A stretch of 64,000 nt of DNA from Aureococcus anophagefferens (Eukaryota > Sar > Pelagophyceae > Pelagomonadales > Pelagomonadaceae): positions 62,459 to 126,458 of the forward strand of contig NW_008705565.1 in the NCBI RefSeq assembly GCF_000186865.1, read 5' to 3'. The translations under genes and the position numbers were made by a program. Numbering within the stretch: the first letter of the stretch is position 1; each line of letters opens with the position of its first letter. The notes under the pieces were generated by a model. It made no database searches. It saw nothing but the letters and a program-made list of their open reading frames with translations, and was not told where the DNA came from. This document shows positions 13,139 to 52,047 of the stretch, one piece after another.

Positions 13139-15619
13139 TTACGAGCCCGCGCGCGTCGCCTCGTTCGCGGCCTCGCGCGCGCGCTTCGCGTAGATGCCGA
13201 GGAAGTCGACGGTCACCGGCAGGCCCATGACGTAGCCGTGGAGGAGGTCGAGCGCGCGGAACGTCGAGAGGAGGGGCTTGAAGCCGCTCGCGGCCTTCTC
13301 CTTCTCGCCCTTGAGCTTCTCCTTGATGTCGTCGATGCCCTTCTGCGAGTCCTTGAGGAACGAGTCGATGTCCTCGAGGTCCGTCTCCTGGTTCGTCGTC
13401 GACCGGCGGAACGCGAACTCGAGGTGCTCGAAGATCGTCGCCGCGGGGACGGACGCGTGCGTCTCGACGCCCAGGTTCTTGAGCGCCGCGGGCAGCTCGT
13501 CGACGGCCGCGCGGAGGAGGCAGTCGACGAGCCGCGCGATGCCGAGGCGCTGCGCGTCGGGCATGATCTCGTGCATGCCCCAGTCCAGCAGCACGGGGAT
13601 CGCGGCGACGCCGCCGCCGTCCGTTCGCCGCACGTCGACGAGGATGTTGCCCGGGTGCGGGTCCATGTTCACGACGCCGCCGTGGAAGAGCAGCGTCGCG
13701 TGCGCGTCGACGAGCGCGTCGATGCACCGCTGGAGCGGCGCGCCCTTGAGGTCGTGCTTCGCCATGGCGACGTCGATGCGGTCGCCCGCGCACCAGCGCA
13801 TGCAGAGCACGCCGGACCGGAGCGCGGCCACATCGTCCGTGTAGAGCGCCTCGGGCACGACGGCCTCGGAGCCGCGCGCCGCGAGCGCGGCGCGCGCGAC
13901 GCCGAGCGCCCGGGCCTCGGCTTCAAAGTCCATCTCCTGGAGCAGGTTCTGGTACTGGTTCTCGACGATCTCGCCGAGGTCCGGCGTCGCGGGCTCGAGC
14001 GCCATCAGAATCTTCGCGATGACCTTCAGGCAGCACATGTCCACGTACATGACGTGGCGCACGCCCGCCTTCTGGATCTTCACGGCGACGTCGCCGCCGC
14101 CGACGGCGACGCGGTGCACCTGCGCGATGGACGCGGACGCGACGGGCTTCGCCAGGTCGCGGTCGCCGAGCGCTCCTTTGACGGCCGCGGGCGCGCCGCG
14201 CGCGCGGCGCCGCGCCGTCGCCGGGGCCATCGCCGGCATGGCGTCGCAGAGGAGCGCCAGCGGCTCGACGAACTCGTCCGCGAGGAAGCCGCGCTGGTTG
14301 CTGACCTGGGGAGGATTCAACTTCGCTTCGACGCGAGTGTTTCGCGCGCGCGCGTTCCAAAACAAGCATCCACGCTTCGAGGCCGTTCCAAAAATCAGCC
14401 GAAACGAGTGGAACACGGCCGAGAGAGGAGCCTTTGGGAATGTCGCACCCTGGTCGCCGACGACCTGGCCCATCTTCACGAGGAGGCCCCGGTCCATCTT
14501 CGCGAGCAGCACGGTCACGTCGGCGATGACGCGCACGGAGAGGCGCTCGAGGAAGGCGCGCTCCGTCGACGCCAGCAGCGACCGCGTGAAGGCGTCGAGG
14601 TGGTCGTTTTCGTCGCGCTCGACGCCGTGCCACCACCGCGCGAGCCGCCAGAGGTGCAAACACCAGAAGACGCTCGGGATGCGGTAGTTGTAGCGGTGGG
14701 CGCCGCGATACCCATAAAGAAAGAGCGTGCACGCCGAGAGCGCCGCGGACGTCCCGGGGAAGCCCCGCCGGGCGACGAACGCTAAAAACGCGGCCGTCGA
14801 CGCGACCACGAAGACGCCGTAGCACCGCGCGGCGAGGACGATGAGCGCCGCGATGGCCTGGCTCAGGCACTCCTCGGGCTCGGCGACGCGCCTCTCCAGC
14901 GCGAGGACCCGCTCCGCGAGGGCGCCGGCCTCGTCGTCGTCGCCGCCGCCCGCGGCGGCGTCGCCGAGGAACGCGTCGAAAAGCGCCGCCGACTTCTCCG
15001 AGAGCGCGGGGCAGCACGCGACGCGCCGGAGCCAGCCGTCGAGGGCGGCGCGCCGCGCCTCGCGGCCGCCGAAGACCTTGGACGGGAACGGCGCGCCGCG
15101 GAGCACGCGCGCGGCCGCGCCCCGGCGCTCGACGCGGAGCAGCGCGGCCCGGAGCGCGCAGAATTCGCTGTAGCGGCGCTCGGCGCGCCGGGGCCCGGCG
15201 GCGACGACGTAGTAGGCGACGCCGCCGGCGACGGCGACGGAGCTCACGGCGACGCGCGCGTCGCCGAGCAGCGCCTTGGCGATGCGCTCCGCGGCGGGCC
15301 GGAGCCCGTGGACGTCGCCGCGGACGCGGACGCCGCCGGACGCGAGCGCCGCGGGGAAGGACCGCGCGCCGCTCAGCACGTCCCGCTCCACGTCGGGCGT
15401 GCGGAACTGGACGACGACGGCGCCCGACGGCGCCGCCGCCGCGTCGCCGCCGGCGGCGACGCGCAGCGTGGTGCCCTCGGACCAGGCCCGGAAGGTCCGC
15501 TTGCCGCCGCTCGTGACCCAGACCTCGGAGGGCAGCGCGGCGCCGACGTCCCGCCCGTCGTACTTGAGCGCACCGTCCAGGGACAGCTCCTCCACGGGCT
15601 GCCTTCCAGGGCTGGCCAT
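13139..15619 (-). CDS. PX domain - ABC1/COQ8 (ADCK) atypical kinase fusion
   Basis: Two exons: 15619-14462 and 14305-13139, 774 residues, start ATG 15619 (MASPGRQPVEEL). A PX domain at about 120-230 (RRYSEFCALRAALL, FPSKVFGG, LDGWLRRV, LFDAFLG) predicts phosphoinositide binding. Hydrophobic helices at about 255-305 follow. The ABC1 kinase shows KMGQ, ASIAQVHRV, VAVKIQKAGV, MDPHPGNILV and LLDWGM. ABC1 kinases act in ubiquinone synthesis and lipid handling in mitochondria and plastids; a PX partner suggests a different membrane here. The intron (14306-14461) falls inside the diagnostic KMGQ...loop, is 156 bp, has no stop and keeps frame, so an unspliced transcript would still translate. Removing it restores KMGQVVSNQRGFL, which aligns with ADCK1-type sequences. 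Confidence 0.85.
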   Translation of the reverse strand: MASPGRQPVEELSLDGALKYDGRDVGAALPSEVWVTSGGKRTFRAWSEGTTLRVAAGGDAAAAPSGAVVVQFRTPDVERDVLSGARSFPAALASGGVRVRGDVHGLRPAAERIAKALLGDARVAVSSVAVAGGVAYYVVAAGPRRAERRYSEFCALRAALLRVERRGAAARVLRGAPFPSKVFGGREARRAALDGWLRRVACCPALSEKSAALFDAFLGDAAAGGGDDDEAGALAERVLALERRVAEPEECLSQAIAALIVLAARCYGVFVVASTAAFLAFVARRGFPGTSAALSACTLFLYGYRGAHRYNYRIPSVFWCLHLWRLARWWHGVERDENDHLDAFTRSLLASTERAFLERLSVRVIADVTVLLAKMDRGLLVKMGQVVGDQGATFPKAPLSAVFHSFRLIFGTASKRGCLFWNARARNTRVEAKLNPPQVSNQRGFLADEFVEPLALLCDAMPAMAPATARRRARGAPAAVKGALGDRDLAKPVASASIAQVHRVAVGGGDVAVKIQKAGVRHVMYVDMCCLKVIAKILMALEPATPDLGEIVENQYQNLLQEMDFEAEARALGVARAALAARGSEAVVPEALYTDDVAALRSGVLCMRWCAGDRIDVAMAKHDLKGAPLQRCIDALVDAHATLLFHGGVVNMDPHPGNILVDVRRTDGGGVAAIPVLLDWGMHEIMPDAQRLGIARLVDCLLRAAVDELPAALKNLGVETHASVPAATIFEHLEFAFRRSTTNQETDLEDIDSFLKDSQKGIDDIKEKLKGEKEKAASGFKPLLSTFRALDLLHGYVMGLPVTVDFLGIYAKRAREAANEATRAGS
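14306..14461 (-). mobile_element. Introner-type intron D (decayed copy), in the PX-ABC1 gene
   Basis: 156 bp. In gene direction it begins GTCGGCGACCAGGGTGCGAC and ends ...CCTCCCCAG. The upstream 12 bases (GTCGGCGACCAG) match the first 12 of the next exon (GTCAGCAACCAG) at 10 positions, a decayed target-site repeat. The interior shares long stretches with the other three copies (AAAGGCTCCTCTCTCGGCC, CACTCGTTTCGGCTGATTTT, the GGAACGCGCGCGCGCG run). It has lost about 45 bp, including most of the outer inverted repeats, so it looks like the oldest copy. Same element orientation as copies A and B relative to transcription. Confidence 0.85.
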
Positions 15620-26223: not shown

Positions 26224-27971
26224 ATGAGGATCGCGCTGCTACTTGTCGCGGCGACGGCGCTCCGGGCGCCAGCGCGACACAGCGCGACGCGCGCATCGGT
26301 CGCGACAACGCGGCGCGGCGGCGCGGCCGCGGTTGCAAACGCGACGACGACGACGCTGCGCGGCGGCGCCATCGACGACAAGATCGCCGCGGCCATCGAC
26401 GCCTGCCGCGCCGCGCTCGAAAAGCGCGCGAACAACACGAAGGCCGCCGCGGCCCTCGCGACGCTCCTGCGGCAGACGGGCGACGAGGACGGCGCGCTCG
26501 CGGCGCTCGCCCGGGCCGCGGCGCACGGCGACGCGGCGAGCGCCGCGCGGTGGGCCGTCGCGCTCGAGGACCGCGGCGACGACGCGGGCGAGGCCTGGCG
26601 CCTCGCCTGGGCCCACTCGGGCGACGTCGAGGCGTTCCAAAGGTTCGTCGGCTACGAGCTCCGCGCGAAGCGCTTCGCCCGCGCGCGGGCGGTCGTCGAG
26701 GCGCGGCTCGCGGCCGAGCCGACGTGCGCCGCGGCGCTCGAGCTCCGGGCGACGGAGCGGCGCGCGGCCGGCGACGCGGCCGAGGCCGCGCGGCTCTACG
26801 CCGAAGCGGCCGACGTCGCGAAGCGGACCGGCGGGGACGCCGCGGGCGCCGCGCTGCGCTGCGCGCTCGGCCGCGCCGGCGCGGGCGAGCTCGGCGCCGC
26901 GGCCGCGGCGTTCCAGGAGGCGCTCCAGCTCGACGCGGAACGCGCGGAAATCTGGCGCGAGCTCGCCTTCTTCCTCGACGAGCAGCGGGGCGACCGCGCG
27001 GGCGCCGTGGCCGCCTTGAAGCGCGCCGTGGACCTCGACGCCGGCGAGGGCCAGGGCAGGACAAGAGAGCGAAATTCCCAACTTCAAAGGCTCCGATCTC
27101 GGCCGTTTTCCACTCGTTTCGGCTGATTTTTGGACGAGCGATCATCTCTCGGAACGGTCTCGAAGCATGGATGCTTGTTTCGGAACGCGCGCGCGCGGAA
27201 CACGCACGTTGAAGCGACGTTGAATCACCCTTTTCCTGCCCAGGCGAGGGCCAGGCGCGCGCGCAGCTCGCCAAGTGGACCGACGGCGACGAGGACTGGC
27301 GCCGCGCGCCCCTCGACGCGTCCTACGTCAGCGGCCTCTTCGACCAGTTCGCCAAGACCTTCGAGCAGAAACTCGTCGGCGACCTGAGCTACCGGGGCCA
27401 CCTCCAGTGCGCGGGGCTCCTCGCGCGGTCGCTGCCGAAGCGGCCGGGCGTCGTCGCCGTGGACGTCGGCGCGGGCACGGGCCTCTGCGGCGCGGCGCTC
27501 CGGGACGCGCTGCCTATCGAGGAGATCGTCGGCGTCGACGTGTCGCCGCGCATGCTCGACGCCGCGCGCGAGAAGGGCGTCTACGAGGACCTCGTCGTCT
27601 CCGACGGCGCGGCCTACCTCGCGACGCGCGGCCCGGGCTCCGTCGACGTCCTCGTCGCCGCGGACGTCTTCGCCTACGTCGGCGACTGCGCCGAGCTCTT
27701 CTCCGCCGCGCGGCGCGTGCTGAAGGCCGACGGCCGCTTCGCGTTCACGCTCGAGGAGCGCGCGAGCGGCTTCGGCCTCGGCGACGGCGGCCGCTTCGCG
27801 CACTCCGAGGCGTACCTCCGCGATGCGGCGGCCGCGGCGGGGCTGGCGGTCATCGACGTCGAGCGGGCCGTCATGCGCACGCAGCGCGGCGCGGACGTCA
27901 ACGTCCTCGTCGTCGCGCTCGCGCCGGCCGTCGAGGTCCGCGACGCCGCCTGGCTCGAGACCGCGGAGTAA
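26224..27971 (+). CDS. TPR-like / SAM-dependent methyltransferase fusion with introner intron
   Basis: Two exons, 26224-27043 and 27244-27971, 515 residues. ATG 26224 gives a hydrophobic leader (MRIALLLVAATALRAP) and a basic stretch, suggesting secretory or plastid routing. Residues about 50-270 are helical repeats of TPR/Sel1 character (LATLLRQTGDEDGALAALARAA, LRATERRAAGDAAEAARLYAEAA, AAAFQEALQLDAERAEIW). The second exon carries a class I methyltransferase: VVAVDVGAGTGLCGAAL (SAM motif I), EEIVGVDVSPRMLDAAR, VDVLVAADVFAYVG and ADGRFAFTLE. TPR plus this type occurs in a family annotated as NDUFAF5/TPR methyltransferases; the substrate is unknown. Removing 27044-27243 restores DAGEGQARAQLAKW. 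Confidence 0.85.
27044..27243 (+). mobile_element. Introner-type intron A, in the TPR-methyltransferase gene
   Basis: 200-bp intron bounded by direct repeats GCGAGGGCCAG at 27044-27054 and 27244-27254. Inserted DNA starts near 27052 with CAGGGCAGGACAAG and ends at 27243 with CTTTTCCTGCCCAG, which are inverted repeats of each other apart from a few bases. Splicing from the GC that opens the upstream repeat to the terminal AG leaves a single copy of the repeat, that is, the pre-insertion coding sequence. A GC-AG intron. It shares most of its sequence with copy C (inverse orientation to its host) and copy B. Confidence 0.93.
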
Positions 27972-28501: not shown

Positions 28502-29000
28502 GTCGTGCGTCGGTGGCGAACTAAGCTGCGAAGGGCTCAGCGCTCTGCGATGCTCAGCGCTCTGCGACGGGCTTCAGGGTTGTGTTTTTTAGCCCCCCCC
28601 CGGGGCCTTGGGGGGGTTTTATGGGCCCTCAGCGACCCCCCCACCCCCCGTCCCGGTGGCCCCCGGCGGCCCGGACGCGTACTGGGGCGCTGTTTTCAGG
28701 AGGTTGTCGCGCCCGAGCCGAGCAGAAGTCGACCCCCCCCACCCCCGTCAAAACCCCCCCAAGGCCCCCCCCCGTGGCTAAAAAACACAACCCAGGTCAG
28801 TCTTCCAGCCAAAAGCGCTCCCAACTTGTGGCAATAAAGATCAAAGTTGAAGACTCACTGAAGGGCACAAAACCGCCGGGCAGCGCCCGCAGAGTCGATG
28901 GTCCATGATCCGGGGTGCCTCGTTTTCCGTTTTCGGCGTCGACGGTGACGTGACCGGCACCCCTCGAGGTCCGCGCCGCGCGTGAACACGGGGCTGCCCT
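28502..29000. other. 499-bp divergent intergenic region with inverted-repeat element
   Basis: Lies between divergent starts. It holds two copies of a 17-bp unit CTCAGCGCTCTGCGATG (about 28536 and 28553), the element at 28575-28795 and then about 200 bp of AT-richer sequence with no coding match. Confidence 0.5.
28575..28795. mobile_element. MITE-like element with 20-bp terminal inverted repeats
   Basis: 221 bp. The left end is CAGGGTTGTGTTTTTTAGCC; the reverse complement of the right end is CTGGGTTGTGTTTTTTAGCC, 19 of 20 matching. The interior is a series of C runs of up to nine with little coding potential. The flanking octamers (ACGGGCTT and GTCAGTCT) do not match, so no target duplication is evident. 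Its outer bases (CAGGG...CCCAG, second base A/T mismatched) are the same as those of the introner introns at 14306, 27044, 43956 and 50549 although the rest differs. It may be a second family or a relic. Confidence 0.7.
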
Positions 29001-43130: not shown

Positions 43131-45404
43131 CTAGCGCGCCTGGCAGAGCATCTCGACGAGCTTGAGGGTCTGGGTGCGGCTGAGCTTGGCGTCGAAGTCG
43201 AGAAAATCGCCGAACTTCTCCTGCAAATCGCCGAGGACCGTCTCGGGCGAGTCGCCCGCGTCCGCGGGGACGACGGGGATGAGCTTGCGGTAGGCGGCGC
43301 CCCCGGGCGTCGTGTACTCGATGGCGAGGCGGCTCGGCTTGTAGGAGATGCCGAGGCGCGTCGGCTCCCAGTCCGGGTGCGGCGGCCCGTCGGGCGCGGC
43401 CTCGGGCTTGGCCGCGATGCGCTCCGGCGGCGCGGGCGGCGCGACGGGCGGCGCGGCCGCAAAGACCGGCGGCGCGGCGGCGACGGCGGCGTTGGCCTCG
43501 AGGGCGCCGGTGCCGTCGTCGAGCGCGCGCGCGACGGCGCCGAAGTCGCCGCGCTTCGCGTCCATGGGCCGCGCGCAGACCTGGACCGCGTCGAACGTCG
43601 CCTTGAAGTCGAGCCAGTCCATCCAGAAGAGGCCGTCGTCGGCGAAGGCGTAGCCGAGCGCCGCGGCGACGTCGGGCCGCTCGCGCCACTGGGGCGCCTT
43701 GTCGGACCAGGCGCCGTTCCACTCCGTCGAGTTGCCCCAGGGGTTGCGCGCCTGCACGAGGCGGACGTCGCCGACGGCCGCGACGCGGATGAGGCTGTAG
43801 GCGTGGCGCTCGACGAGGCCGTCGTCCCGGGGCTTCTCGATTTCGTCGCCCGTGATGGACGCGGCCATGATGAAGTTCGACTCGTCGCAGTGCAGCAAGA
43901 AGTCGAACATGGCCGCGTCGCCGAGCGCCTCGGCCGTCTTCCGCGCGTAGAGCGCCTGGGCAGGAAACTGGTGATTCAACGTCGCTTCAACGTGAGTGTT
44001 CCGCGCGCGCGCGTTCCAGGAACAGCATCCACGCTTCGAGAACGCTCCGAGGGACGATCGCTCGTCCGAAAATCAGCCGAAACGAGTGGAAAACGACCGA
44101 GATAGGAGCCTTTGAGGTCGGGAATTGCACACCCCTTTCCTGCTCTGACTGAGCGCCTGGTAGTTGTGGGGGTCCTCGCGGACCTGGGGCATGGAGACCA
44201 TGGACTTGGCCCAGGTTTCGCCGGACCGGTGCCACATCTGGAGGTCCTCGCAGCCCGTGAGCGTGAGCCACGCGAGCACGGGGTAGCCGCCCGACAGCTT
44301 CCCGTAGGACCCCGCGAGCTTCGCGAAGGCCTTCTCGATGAGCAGGATGTACATCTCGTTGCCGTGGGGCTGGCTGAAGAGGGGCCGCGGCGCCTCCCAC
44401 CACTTCTTGGGGCCGCAGGGCACGAGGTCGTCGACGACGACGGACGCGAAGTCGCCGAGCTTCGCGTCGTAGAGCCGGAGGCTGTAGCGGCCGTCGGCCG
44501 TCGGCGCCTTCGTTTCAAATAGCGCCTCCTCGACGAAGCCCGGGAACTCGGCGACGGCGCTCAAAGCGCACAAGAGCCAGCAGTCGCCGAGCGCGCCCTG
44601 CATGATGTCCGACGGTTCGACGCCGTCCCAGAGGTGGACCTCCTCGTCCGGCCCGTGGAGCTTGGACGCGCGGATCCAGCTCGCGCCGCCGACGCTCGGC
44701 TCGTCGAGCGACGCCGGCCCGGCGACGAAGTCCGGGTCGTGGAAGCCGCCGTCGTCGACGTCCTCGTCGTGTTCGCCGGCCGCGTCGCCCGCGGACGGCG
44801 GCTCGCAGGGGTGCACCGTCAGCGCGACGGCGGACCAGTCCGCGCGCTCGGGGCTAAACGCGTCCGTCGGCGCGCTCCCGAAGTAGGACGCGTAGGCGCC
44901 GGACGCGTCGAGGCCCGCGGCGTCGCCGAAGAGCCAGCGCCGCTCCGGGCCGTACCAGAGGTCCTTGCCGTCCTCGGCGTTGTGGTACACGGGCCGCCCG
45001 TTCTCCGCGCGGTCGTCGCACGCGACGTAGCCGCCGGCGATGTTCCCGTAGCGACACTCGACGGCGACGGCCCGCGACGACGCGACCTCGGGCGCCGCGC
45101 GGCCGAACGCGAGGCGCAGCGCGGGCCAGCCGACCCACCGCTTCTCGTGGTAGACGCTCCAGCCGCCGACGACCGTCGCCTCGCCGCCGTTGTAGGCCTT
45201 GCAGCTCTTGCCGCCGCTCTTCTTGCCCACGACCCAGGCGCCGGGCGACCGCTCGTAGAGGTAGAGCCGGTTCTGCTGGCAGTAGTAGGTCGGCCCGCCG
45301 GACTTGCCCACCTCCTTGTAGAGCTCGAAGGTGCCGCAGACCGTGCGGGGCTCGCCGTCGACGACGTCGAGGACGGCGACCTCGGGCGTCGCCGCGAACT
45401 CCAT
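43131..45404 (-). CDS. Calpain-type cysteine protease with introner intron
   Basis: Two exons, 45404-44157 and 43955-43131, 690 residues. The catalytic triad is intact: Cys275 in IMQGALGDCWLLCALSAVA, His467 in LVERHAYSLIRV and Asn487 in VQARNPWGNSTEW, followed by NGAWSDKAPQW. The N-terminal 230 residues contain two or three repeats of a small module (CGTFELYKEVGKSGGPTYYCQQNRLYLYER; CRYGNIAGGYVACDDRAENGRPVYHN) of unknown function. The C-terminus has an Ala/Pro-rich linker and a short helical end. Calpains are calcium-regulated cytosolic proteases; no EF-hand is present here. Removing 43956-44156 rejoins HNYQ to ALYARKTAEAL exactly. Confidence 0.92.
43956..44156 (-). mobile_element. Introner-type intron B, in the calpain gene
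   Basis: 201 bp. In gene direction the host reads CAG|GCGCTC before the element and CCCAG|GCGCTC after it, so GCGCTC is the clear part of the target repeat (neighbouring bases have diverged). Element ends are CAGAGCAGGAAAGG and, at the other side, CAGTTTCCTGCCCAG, still partly inverted. GC donor, AG acceptor. Interior blocks (CACTCGTTTCGGCTGATTTT, GACGAGCGAT, CACGTTGAAGCGACGTTGAA) identify it as the same family as copies A, C and D, and in the same orientation relative to transcription as A. Confidence 0.92.
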
Positions 45405-49759: not shown

Positions 49760-52047
49760 CTAGTCCTTGATGAGCTTGTAGGCGGCCACGGCCGCCGCGG
49801 ACGGCTTGCCGTGGTCGATCATGAGCTTCAGCTTCCGCGCCTTGGGGAAGTGCGCGGCGCCGCGGTCCTCGTAGACGCCGTACAGCGCGCGCGCGAGCGC
49901 GACGCAGGCGGGCGCGCTGTAGACTTCGCAGCGGTACGCCTTGCGCGTCCGCTTGTGCACCGTGGGGCCGACGACCTTGGCCGGCGTCTCGGTCACGTGG
50001 AAGTCGCCGGCCGCCGCGACGAGGCGGCGGCTCACGAGCGCGTCGCGGAGCGCGACGAGGAAGCCCTGGTCGGACTGGAAGAAGCCGATGCAGAACTTGC
50101 CGTCGCTGATGTAGGACCCGCCGTCGCCCTCGAAGAAGAAGGTGACCATGGCGACGAACTGGTCCGCGGTCATGGCCGCGAACAGGCCGCCGTACCAGGC
50201 GACGTTCGCCGACGTCGACTTGACGGCGTCGGCGGACTTGAGGCGCTTGAGCACGGCGAAGAGCACGTTGCGCGCGTCGTACTGGAGCTGCGTGCCCTCG
50301 TGCCAGGCGATGCCGTAGCCCCGGCCGAGGCAGAGCTTGGCCTCGCGCAAGGCGAGGTTGGCGAGCTGGAGCTGGCGCGCCTTGACGCCGCCGAGGTGCC
50401 AGTGCGTGGCGAGGAAGCGGAGCATCGTGCTGTCGCTGGCCTTGTAGACGACCTTGACGTAGTAGCCGAGGTGCCGGCACGCGAGGATGTGGACGGAGCC
50501 CGTGCCGATCGCGTTCTTCAGCGCGACGAGGAGCTGGATGGAGTGCACCTGGGCAGGACAAGAGTGCGAAATTCCCAACTTCAAAGGCTCCTCTCTCGGC
50601 CGGTTTCCACTCGTTTCGGCTGATTTTTGGACGAGCGATCATCTCTCGGAATGGTCTCGAAGCGTGGATGCTTTTTCCAGAACGGGCGCGCGCGAAACAC
50701 TCACGTTGAAGCGACGTTGAATCACCCTCGTCCCGCCCTGGAGTGCACGCTCAGCACGGCCTCGATCATGAGGCGGGAGGCCATGCCGAAGACCCCCGAG
50801 ACGGTGACGTAGAACGACCCGTCCGCGCAGATGAGCCCAAGCACGTCCACCGGCTTGAGCCGCACCGTGCCCGCGAACCAGTCGGGCAGGCAGATGCCGC
50901 CGGACCCGAGGCGGGGCTGCGCCAGCGCCGCCGCCGCGACGCACGTCATCCAGACCTGCCACAGGGCGCCGCCCTTGCCGCGCCGCGCGTCGCCCTTCTC
51001 CTGCGTGAGCTCCTCGGGCACGTCGACCTTGTAGCGGCGCGCCTTCGTCCGCACCAGCGGGATGAAGGCGGCGGCGGCGGCGGCGACGGCGGCGGCCTCG
51101 ACCGTCGCCGAGCGGACGACGCGGACGACGCGGAGCAGCGGCGTCGGCGTCCACTGCGTCGCGTCGTCGCCGCCCGGCGGCAGGCCGAAGCTGGGCGCCG
51201 CGTCGTAGCCGCCGGGGACCGCCGGCCGCGACGCGGCGAGCTCGTTGCCGAGGTCGCGCCGGTGCTTCGCCCAGCCGCCGTCGGGCGCGGACGGCTTCTT
51301 CCGCCCGTCCGGCGCCACGGCCGCTTCCTCGTCGTCGTCCTCCGACTCCAGCGCCGCGTCGTCCTGCGGCGCCGCCGGCGCCTCCTCGTCCATGGCGTCC
51401 GGCGCCGCCGGCGGGTCGTCCTCGTCCATGGCGCCCGTCGCCGCCGGCGCCGCGTTGCCGCGGGCCTCGTCCGCGAGCTGCGCGGCCTCCGCCGCCGCCT
51501 CCTTAGCCGTCGCGCGCGTCACGCGGGGCGCGGGCGGCGACTCCAACGCCGCGGTGAGCGGCGGGTCCGGCGCCGCGTCGCGCGGTCGCTTCGCCGGCGG
51601 GGCCTGGCCCGGCGACGCGCGCCGCGGCGCGAGGACCTCGCGGAGCGGCTGCCGGGCCGCCTGCCGGGCCATCTGCTCGCGCGTGGCCGCGGTCAGCTGG
51701 TCCTCCTCGACGATCGCGGCCACGAGGGACTCGAGGATCTGGGCCTTGTCCGGCGCGATCAACGTCACCGACGCCAGCGCCGAGATGACGCCGGCGAGGC
51801 TGGAGTCGGCCGCCGCCGGCGTCGCGCGGTCCGGGGCGTCGTAGAAGTCGCACAGCAGGCCGAGGTCGACGAGCGCGCCCAGCGTCGCGCGGACGACCGT
51901 GACGGGGGCGCCGACGTCGCGCGCGATGTCGCTGGACGACTTGCAGTCGTCGCCGTCGCCGCCGACGACGGCCTCGTAGGCGTTGCGCTCGAGTGCGCTA
52001 AGTTTTGGCATTGGCGCCGGGTCCGTGTCCTCGTCCATGTTCTCCAT
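49760..52047 (-). CDS. Winged-helix / two-domain LAGLIDADG protein with introner intron
   Basis: Two exons, 52047-50749 and 50548-49760, 695 residues, ATG 52047 (MENMDEDTD). Residues about 13-70 form a winged helix (LERNAYEAVVGG, SSSDIARDVGAPVTVVRATLGALVDLGLL). A long disordered, acidic and Ala/Pro-rich region follows. From about 385 the chain matches double-motif LAGLIDADG homing endonucleases: LGLICADGSFYVTV (Asp409), MIEAVLSVHSIQLLVALKNAIGTGSVHI and KARQLQLANLALREAK, then FVAMVTFFFEGDGGSYISDGKFCIGFFQSDQGFLVAL (Asp575). Both catalytic acids are present. The intron 50549-50748 cuts the first domain; removing it joins LS to VHSIQ without change. Whether it still cleaves DNA or has become a host regulator is unknown. 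I know no described protein with this architecture. Confidence 0.8.
50549..50748 (-). mobile_element. Introner-type intron C (inverse orientation), in the LAGLIDADG gene
   Basis: 200-bp intron between direct repeats GTGCACTCCA (gene direction; 50748-50739 and 50548-50539). The inserted part (192 bp counted from an 8-bp repeat) is the same length as copy A and very similar to it, but copy A-like sequence reads on the plus strand while the host gene is on the minus strand. In gene direction it starts CAGGGCGGGACGAG and ends CTTGTCCTGCCCAG. The GT donor comes from the target repeat and AG from the element end. So the element provides a usable 3' splice site at either end. Confidence 0.93.

Follow-up and report, generated by a model that had tools for sequence, protein, structure and literature searches.

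A transposon-derived introner predicted to be excised as a GC-AG intron from a methyltransferase gene of Aureococcus anophagefferens

Introduction

MITEs of the hAT type are recognised by an 8-bp duplication and by a CAGGG-type sequence at both of their ends. The introners of A. anophagefferens were reportedly described in 2016, by Huff, Zilberman and Roy in Nature, as short non-autonomous DNA transposons, which are said to carry one splice site, to co-opt the other from the duplicated host site and to be removed exactly. The passages on introners of a review (PMC10228655) state that the 2016 study reported insertion in both orientations, and insertion between nucleosomes is reported for Aureococcus in passages of PMC9860276 and PMC10228655. 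The characteristic length of these introners is about 210 bp according to a passage of PMC9481584, and passages of PMC7789003 describe them as having canonical splicing motifs and list A. anophagefferens among the organisms with many non-canonical introns.

Here, we analysed a 64-kb window of the A. anophagefferens genome (the window being the whole stretch of DNA under study), in which an intron is predicted at positions 27044-27243. The family of elements to which it belongs resembles the hAT-type MITEs in its 8-bp duplication and in one CAGGG end, and differs from them in that 106 of 107 copies have CTGGG instead of CAGGG at the acceptor end. The predicted intron is 200 nt long, as compared with the ~210 bp given in the passage of PMC9481584, and the 71 GC donors found in 99 copies conflict with the canonical motifs mentioned in PMC7789003, in the passage concerned, unless GC-AG counts as canonical. 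As described in passages of Gozashti 2022 (PMC9860276), the introners of Symbiodinium microadriaticum are similar in that they bring their own 3′ splice site, derive the 5′ one from the duplication and have inverted repeats, but they generate a 4-bp duplication, as opposed to 8 bp here, and occur in a distant host. The same passages (PMC9860276, Fig. 2F) present introner family 4 of an Aureococcus sp. metagenome genome, which belongs to the same genus and has an 8-bp duplication, but carries both splice sites and adds 12 bp to the mRNA, whereas nothing is added here.

Materials and Methods

Copies of the element were searched for in the 49-Mb genome with a loose and a strict two-ended pattern, the loose pattern being accompanied by a reversed control. 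The 107 copies analysed are what remained of 114 matches after dropping three that were truncated at the edge of a stretch and four with ends too diverged for the end score. They came from the window, from the best 39 other matches to the window copy, from 30 of 47 reversed copies that one pattern had retrieved, from one single copy, from 20 copies taken in listing order from contigs 1-2 with the strict pattern, and from neighbours present in the same stretches. Because the sample was drawn in this way, the share of reversed copies in the 107-copy set is no estimate of their frequency. A consecutive listing from the loose pattern, comprising 34 copies with both ends visible, was counted by hand.

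Results

The predicted intron and its host gene

The gene interrupted by the segment lies on the forward strand. Its 5′ exon (26224-27043) and its 3′ exon (27244-27971, which encodes the methyltransferase domain recognised by Pfam) form one open frame when joined, and the spliced gene (26224-27971) encodes a 515-amino-acid protein with Pfam matches to methyltransferase and TPR domains. Translation of the window sequence with the segment kept leads to a frame shift and to a stop ending at position 27126. The 200-nt segment is bracketed by the direct repeats GGCGAGGGCCAGG at 27043-27055 and 27243-27255, so that 14 registers of a 200-nt removal yield the identical mRNA. Only one of them, 27044-27243, starts with a possible donor (GC or GT) and ends with an AG acceptor, in agreement with the GC...AG intron of the original prediction, and its removal gives the reading of the related proteins.

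The segment 27044-27243 consists of one copy of an 8-bp target-site duplication and of a 192-bp introner element, all on the forward strand. The upstream copy of the duplication (GCGAGGGC, 27044-27051) provides the predicted donor with its first two bases, as judged from the 107-copy profile, and the downstream copy (27244-27251) is the start of the 3′ exon. The element (27052-27243) has imperfect terminal inverted repeats (CAGGGCAGG... / ...CCTGCCCAG), namely a left one at 27052-27067 (CAGGGCAGGACAAGAG) and a right one at 27228-27243 (reverse complement CTGGGCAGGAAAAGGG), which ends with the predicted AG acceptor. The direct repeat of 11 bp initially noted at this place does exist, but as a measure of the duplication it is too long: the repeat appears to span 11-13 bp because the CAGG of the host is by chance identical to the first four bases of the element. 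A target-site duplication of 11 bp was ruled out since the flanks of the 107 copies agree consistently at 8 positions only.

The expected reading after removal, DAGEGQARAQ, is the one found in P0002, a public protein with 97% identity, which is devoid of the inserted segment. Four more distant proteins (P0004, P0005, P0006 and P0008; 50-51% identical) aligned across the site free of gaps, with the reading EGQARAQ or EGQARCQ. At the level of these sequences, P0002 and the distant relatives would fit splicing and empty sites alike.

A dispersed family of elements

The loose pattern found 1,359 places in the genome and its reversed control none, a difference well above chance, which bears out the dispersed family that a genome search for further copies was expected to reveal. 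The strict pattern found 355 places, and missed the window copy, whose right end deviates from it by one base. Among the 107 sampled copies, 88 have an element length of 192 bp. The sampled copies are bounded by inverted repeats and flanked by 8-bp duplications, and the sequences around them differ from one another, i.e., the insertion sites are unrelated.

Two other near-intact copies occur in the window, both on the reverse strand. The one at 43956-44156 is a predicted 201-nt GC...AG intron of a calpain-like gene, in which one extra base separates the duplication from the element, with the donor still at the start of the duplication. Its removal generates an open stretch of 701 codons (in the 3 kb examined), and a single Peptidase_C2 domain (Pfam, residues 221-543) then spans the junction. 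The copy at 50549-50748 has its interior reversed relative to the gene and is a predicted 200-nt GT...AG intron, the junction of which is present, at the protein level, in two public A. anophagefferens proteins, P0055 and P0056. The host gene of this copy has no match to a Pfam family; one public record (P0055) calls it "beta-1,6-glucosyl hydrolase", and by eye parts of it resemble a LAGLIDADG-like endonuclease. At 14314-14455, there is a diverged sequence related to the element (76% identity over 167 aligned positions), with unrecognisable ends. Separately, an inverted-repeat structure with C and G runs and arms of the GTTGTGTTTTTTAGCC type was seen by eye 3′ of the methyltransferase gene (28580-28796), and is possibly a further small mobile element.

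Target-site duplication and donor

Each of the 8 flank positions matches between the two flanks in 97-103 of the 107 copies, as compared with 10-49 of 107 for the positions just outside. All 8 bases agree in 82 copies, and 7 bases in 17. In these 99 clean duplications (7-8 of 8 matching), the first dinucleotide is invariably GC (71 copies) or GT (28 copies). GC and GT together make up only about 20% of the coding-strand dinucleotides in the 5′ flanks, where GC is 4.3 times as common as GT. As a side observation, the match to the U1 consensus was slightly better in the GC donors than in background GC sites (A at position 4, 20/71 vs. 14%; R at position 3, 54/71 vs. 58%), while no such shift was seen in the GT donors.

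Frame restoration

Using a coding model trained on two genes of the window, one of which is the host gene of 27044-27243 itself, we found that removal brings the upstream and downstream coding frames into register in 100 of the 105 copies with enough flank. The frame is open only after removal in 100 of the 105 copies, open either way in four and neither way in one. The strand with the acceptor coincides with the coding strand in 103/105 copies as seen from the 5′ flank and in 99/105 as seen from the 3′ flank, and among 97 copies with clean duplications the best junction offset is 0 in 96. Three of the five frame failures, including the calpain-like copy, have 1-2 extra bases between the duplication and the element, which places the duplication and its leading donor 1-2 bases further upstream. 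As to the remaining two, one has no clear downstream coding signal and the other an uncertain boundary.

Ends of the element and polarity classes

The acceptor end is AG in 106 of the 107 copies, and the lone exception is the copy with the uncertain boundary mentioned above. The equivalent position at the other end is A in 98 copies, G in eight and T in one. Accordingly worded from the outside inwards, the non-acceptor end starts with CAG in 98/107 copies and the acceptor end with CTG in 106/107. Genome-wide, in counts that are valid only for copies whose remaining terminal bases fit the pattern, an AG acceptor occurs on at least one strand in 1,358 of 1,359 places, on both strands in eight and on neither in one; this sole place begins 684 bases away from the end of a contig. 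In the consecutive listing, the AG end is present in 34/34 copies, the other end is not A in 6/34 and the interior is reversed in 15/34.

In copies with a reversed interior, the AG is still on the strand of the gene, and the 33 sampled ones all have GC or GT donors. The frame is restored in 31/31 copies with T at both ends. On a tree of the interiors (106 rows), the polarity classes require at least four changes; no branch of this tree is starred, so that a single origin and multiple origins of the classes look the same on it. We also observed that at positions 9 and 11 of the terminal repeats the alleles co-vary between the two ends, with both alleles common and the arms staying complementary (counts of 61/10/6/21 of 98, with one odd row excluded, and 45/11/10/33 of 99, respectively). 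This covariation was not counted as evidence, because it could reflect inherited haplotypes, a need of the transposase or RNA pairing.

Discussion

The copies, their inverted ends, their 8-bp duplications and the restored frames speak for the intron-forming DNA transposon (introner) that had been put forward for this locus, and from sequence comparisons we consider it almost certain that 27044-27243 is an A. anophagefferens introner derived from a 192-bp non-autonomous (MITE-like) DNA transposon and excised as a predicted intron. On inserting into the methyltransferase gene, the 192-bp element would have generated an 8-bp duplication, whose leading host dinucleotide (GC here, GT elsewhere) would serve as the 5′ splice site; the 3′ splice site would be the AG with which the element ends. 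Splicing in the cell, as it may be deduced from these data, would then remove one copy of the duplication together with the element, thereby giving back the pre-insertion mRNA and leaving the protein unchanged. The proposed restoration of the pre-insertion codons is in line with the frames of 100/105 copies and with the gap-free relatives of the host protein. The view that the host site supplies the donor GC also held, with the donor inside the duplication in 99/99 clean duplications, and can be refined in that the introner donor is GC or GT depending on the site. Mobilisation would presumably depend on a transposase acting in trans, and insertions at sites lacking GC or GT would presumably be eliminated by selection.

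The public gene models bear on where the intron starts. The hypothetical protein AURANDRAFT_62435 of A. anophagefferens (P0001) is letter for letter the product of the window read with a GT donor at 27116 and the AG acceptor at 27243, as would be the case if the intron were real but shorter and 27044-27115 added 24 residues to the protein. This identity also assigns the window to A. anophagefferens itself. P0003, likewise a public model of this species, differs in its 5′ part, and its exon begins, by eye, at the same acceptor. The 72 nt retained in the AURANDRAFT_62435 model cover the duplication and the first part of the element, and the 24 residues that they encode are absent from P0002 and from the four distant relatives, in which EGQAR(A/C)QLAKW is uninterrupted. 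Moreover, the junction of P0055 and P0056 at 50549-50748 follows the same rule as that of the 200-nt intron, be its origin spliced or empty. We therefore regard the shorter intron as very unlikely. The AURANDRAFT_62435 form would fit a gene finder that refuses GC donors, which we propose because two public proteins match the predicted junction at the GT-donor copy 50549-50748. Hence, one public gene model looks wrong owing to the GC donor of the gene, and others may be.

The GC or GT at the start of the duplication might also reflect a target preference of the transposase, independently of splicing. Such a preference could be mirrored, since C occupies the eighth position of the duplication in 57/107 copies and the mirrored dinucleotide RC occurs at the far end in 40/99, above a background of 22%. 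At 40/99, however, a symmetric preference alone is insufficient for a GY rule that holds in 99/99 at the donor end only. This GY follows the strand of the terminal AG, not the interior (22 GC and 11 GT in the 33 copies with a reversed interior), and both the frame and the coding strand concur with splicing, which makes target preference as the explanation highly improbable. The family might, on the other hand, have spread not as DNA but through reverse splicing of the excised intron RNA, a route proposed for fungal introners in a passage of PMC9860276, and it is true that the sampled copies lie in genes and, by their sequence, could be spliced. The 8-bp duplications, the inverted-repeat ends and the reversed interiors are nevertheless marks of a transposon, and the donor GY is a property of the site and not of the element, so that we give this route hardly any credence.

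Returning to the DNA transposon, we looked for an autonomous partner with the same ends, using two patterns that excluded the usual next bases. They matched 17 and 20 places, and the six inspected, all from the first pattern, were ordinary copies. A search for the hAT transposase domain PF05699 gave zero matches, but the control genomes were likewise silent. The element had no match in a phage collection. Five viral contigs contain the 16-base end; since beyond this end only two weak stretches (17 and 27 bases, E 0.08-0.9) were found, none of these viral contigs contains the element.

We tentatively suggest, with somewhat less than even confidence, that one base per end sets both the spliceability and the strand: an element with CAGGG at both ends would be unspliceable, and one ...CCCAG end would make it an intron. 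The interior would be reversed between the two resulting polarity classes, for which the two-acceptor copies (8/1,359) are a possible bridge, inversion between the terminal repeats being the other route. A switch of polarity would thus occur either by inversion between the terminal repeats or by base changes passing through two-acceptor copies. The strictness of the acceptor could be measured, as one place of 1,359 is without it, compared with changes at the other end in 9/107 sampled and 6/34 listed copies.

This kind of element is already known, given that transposon-born introners are said to have been described in A. anophagefferens; the present family very probably is the published one, the correspondence being at the level of the reported description. 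The polarity classes may be known as well, because insertion in both orientations was reported in 2016 according to the review passages (PMC10228655). Neither the one-base polarity rule nor any count of copies lacking an acceptor or having two was found in the literature passages covered here (from PMC9860276, PMC9481584, PMC7789003, PMC10228655 and PMC6726248). Our analysis adds the 8-bp duplication, the donor rule (99/99), the acceptor count (1,358/1,359), the polarity classes and the odd gene model.

Introners are among the few mechanisms of bulk intron creation that can be read from sequence, and the copy at 27044-27243 is a clean textbook case. If the one-base rule for the ends is true, the interior of the element would be largely free, and the family would represent a natural experiment on the minimal definition of an intron, mostly with GC donors.
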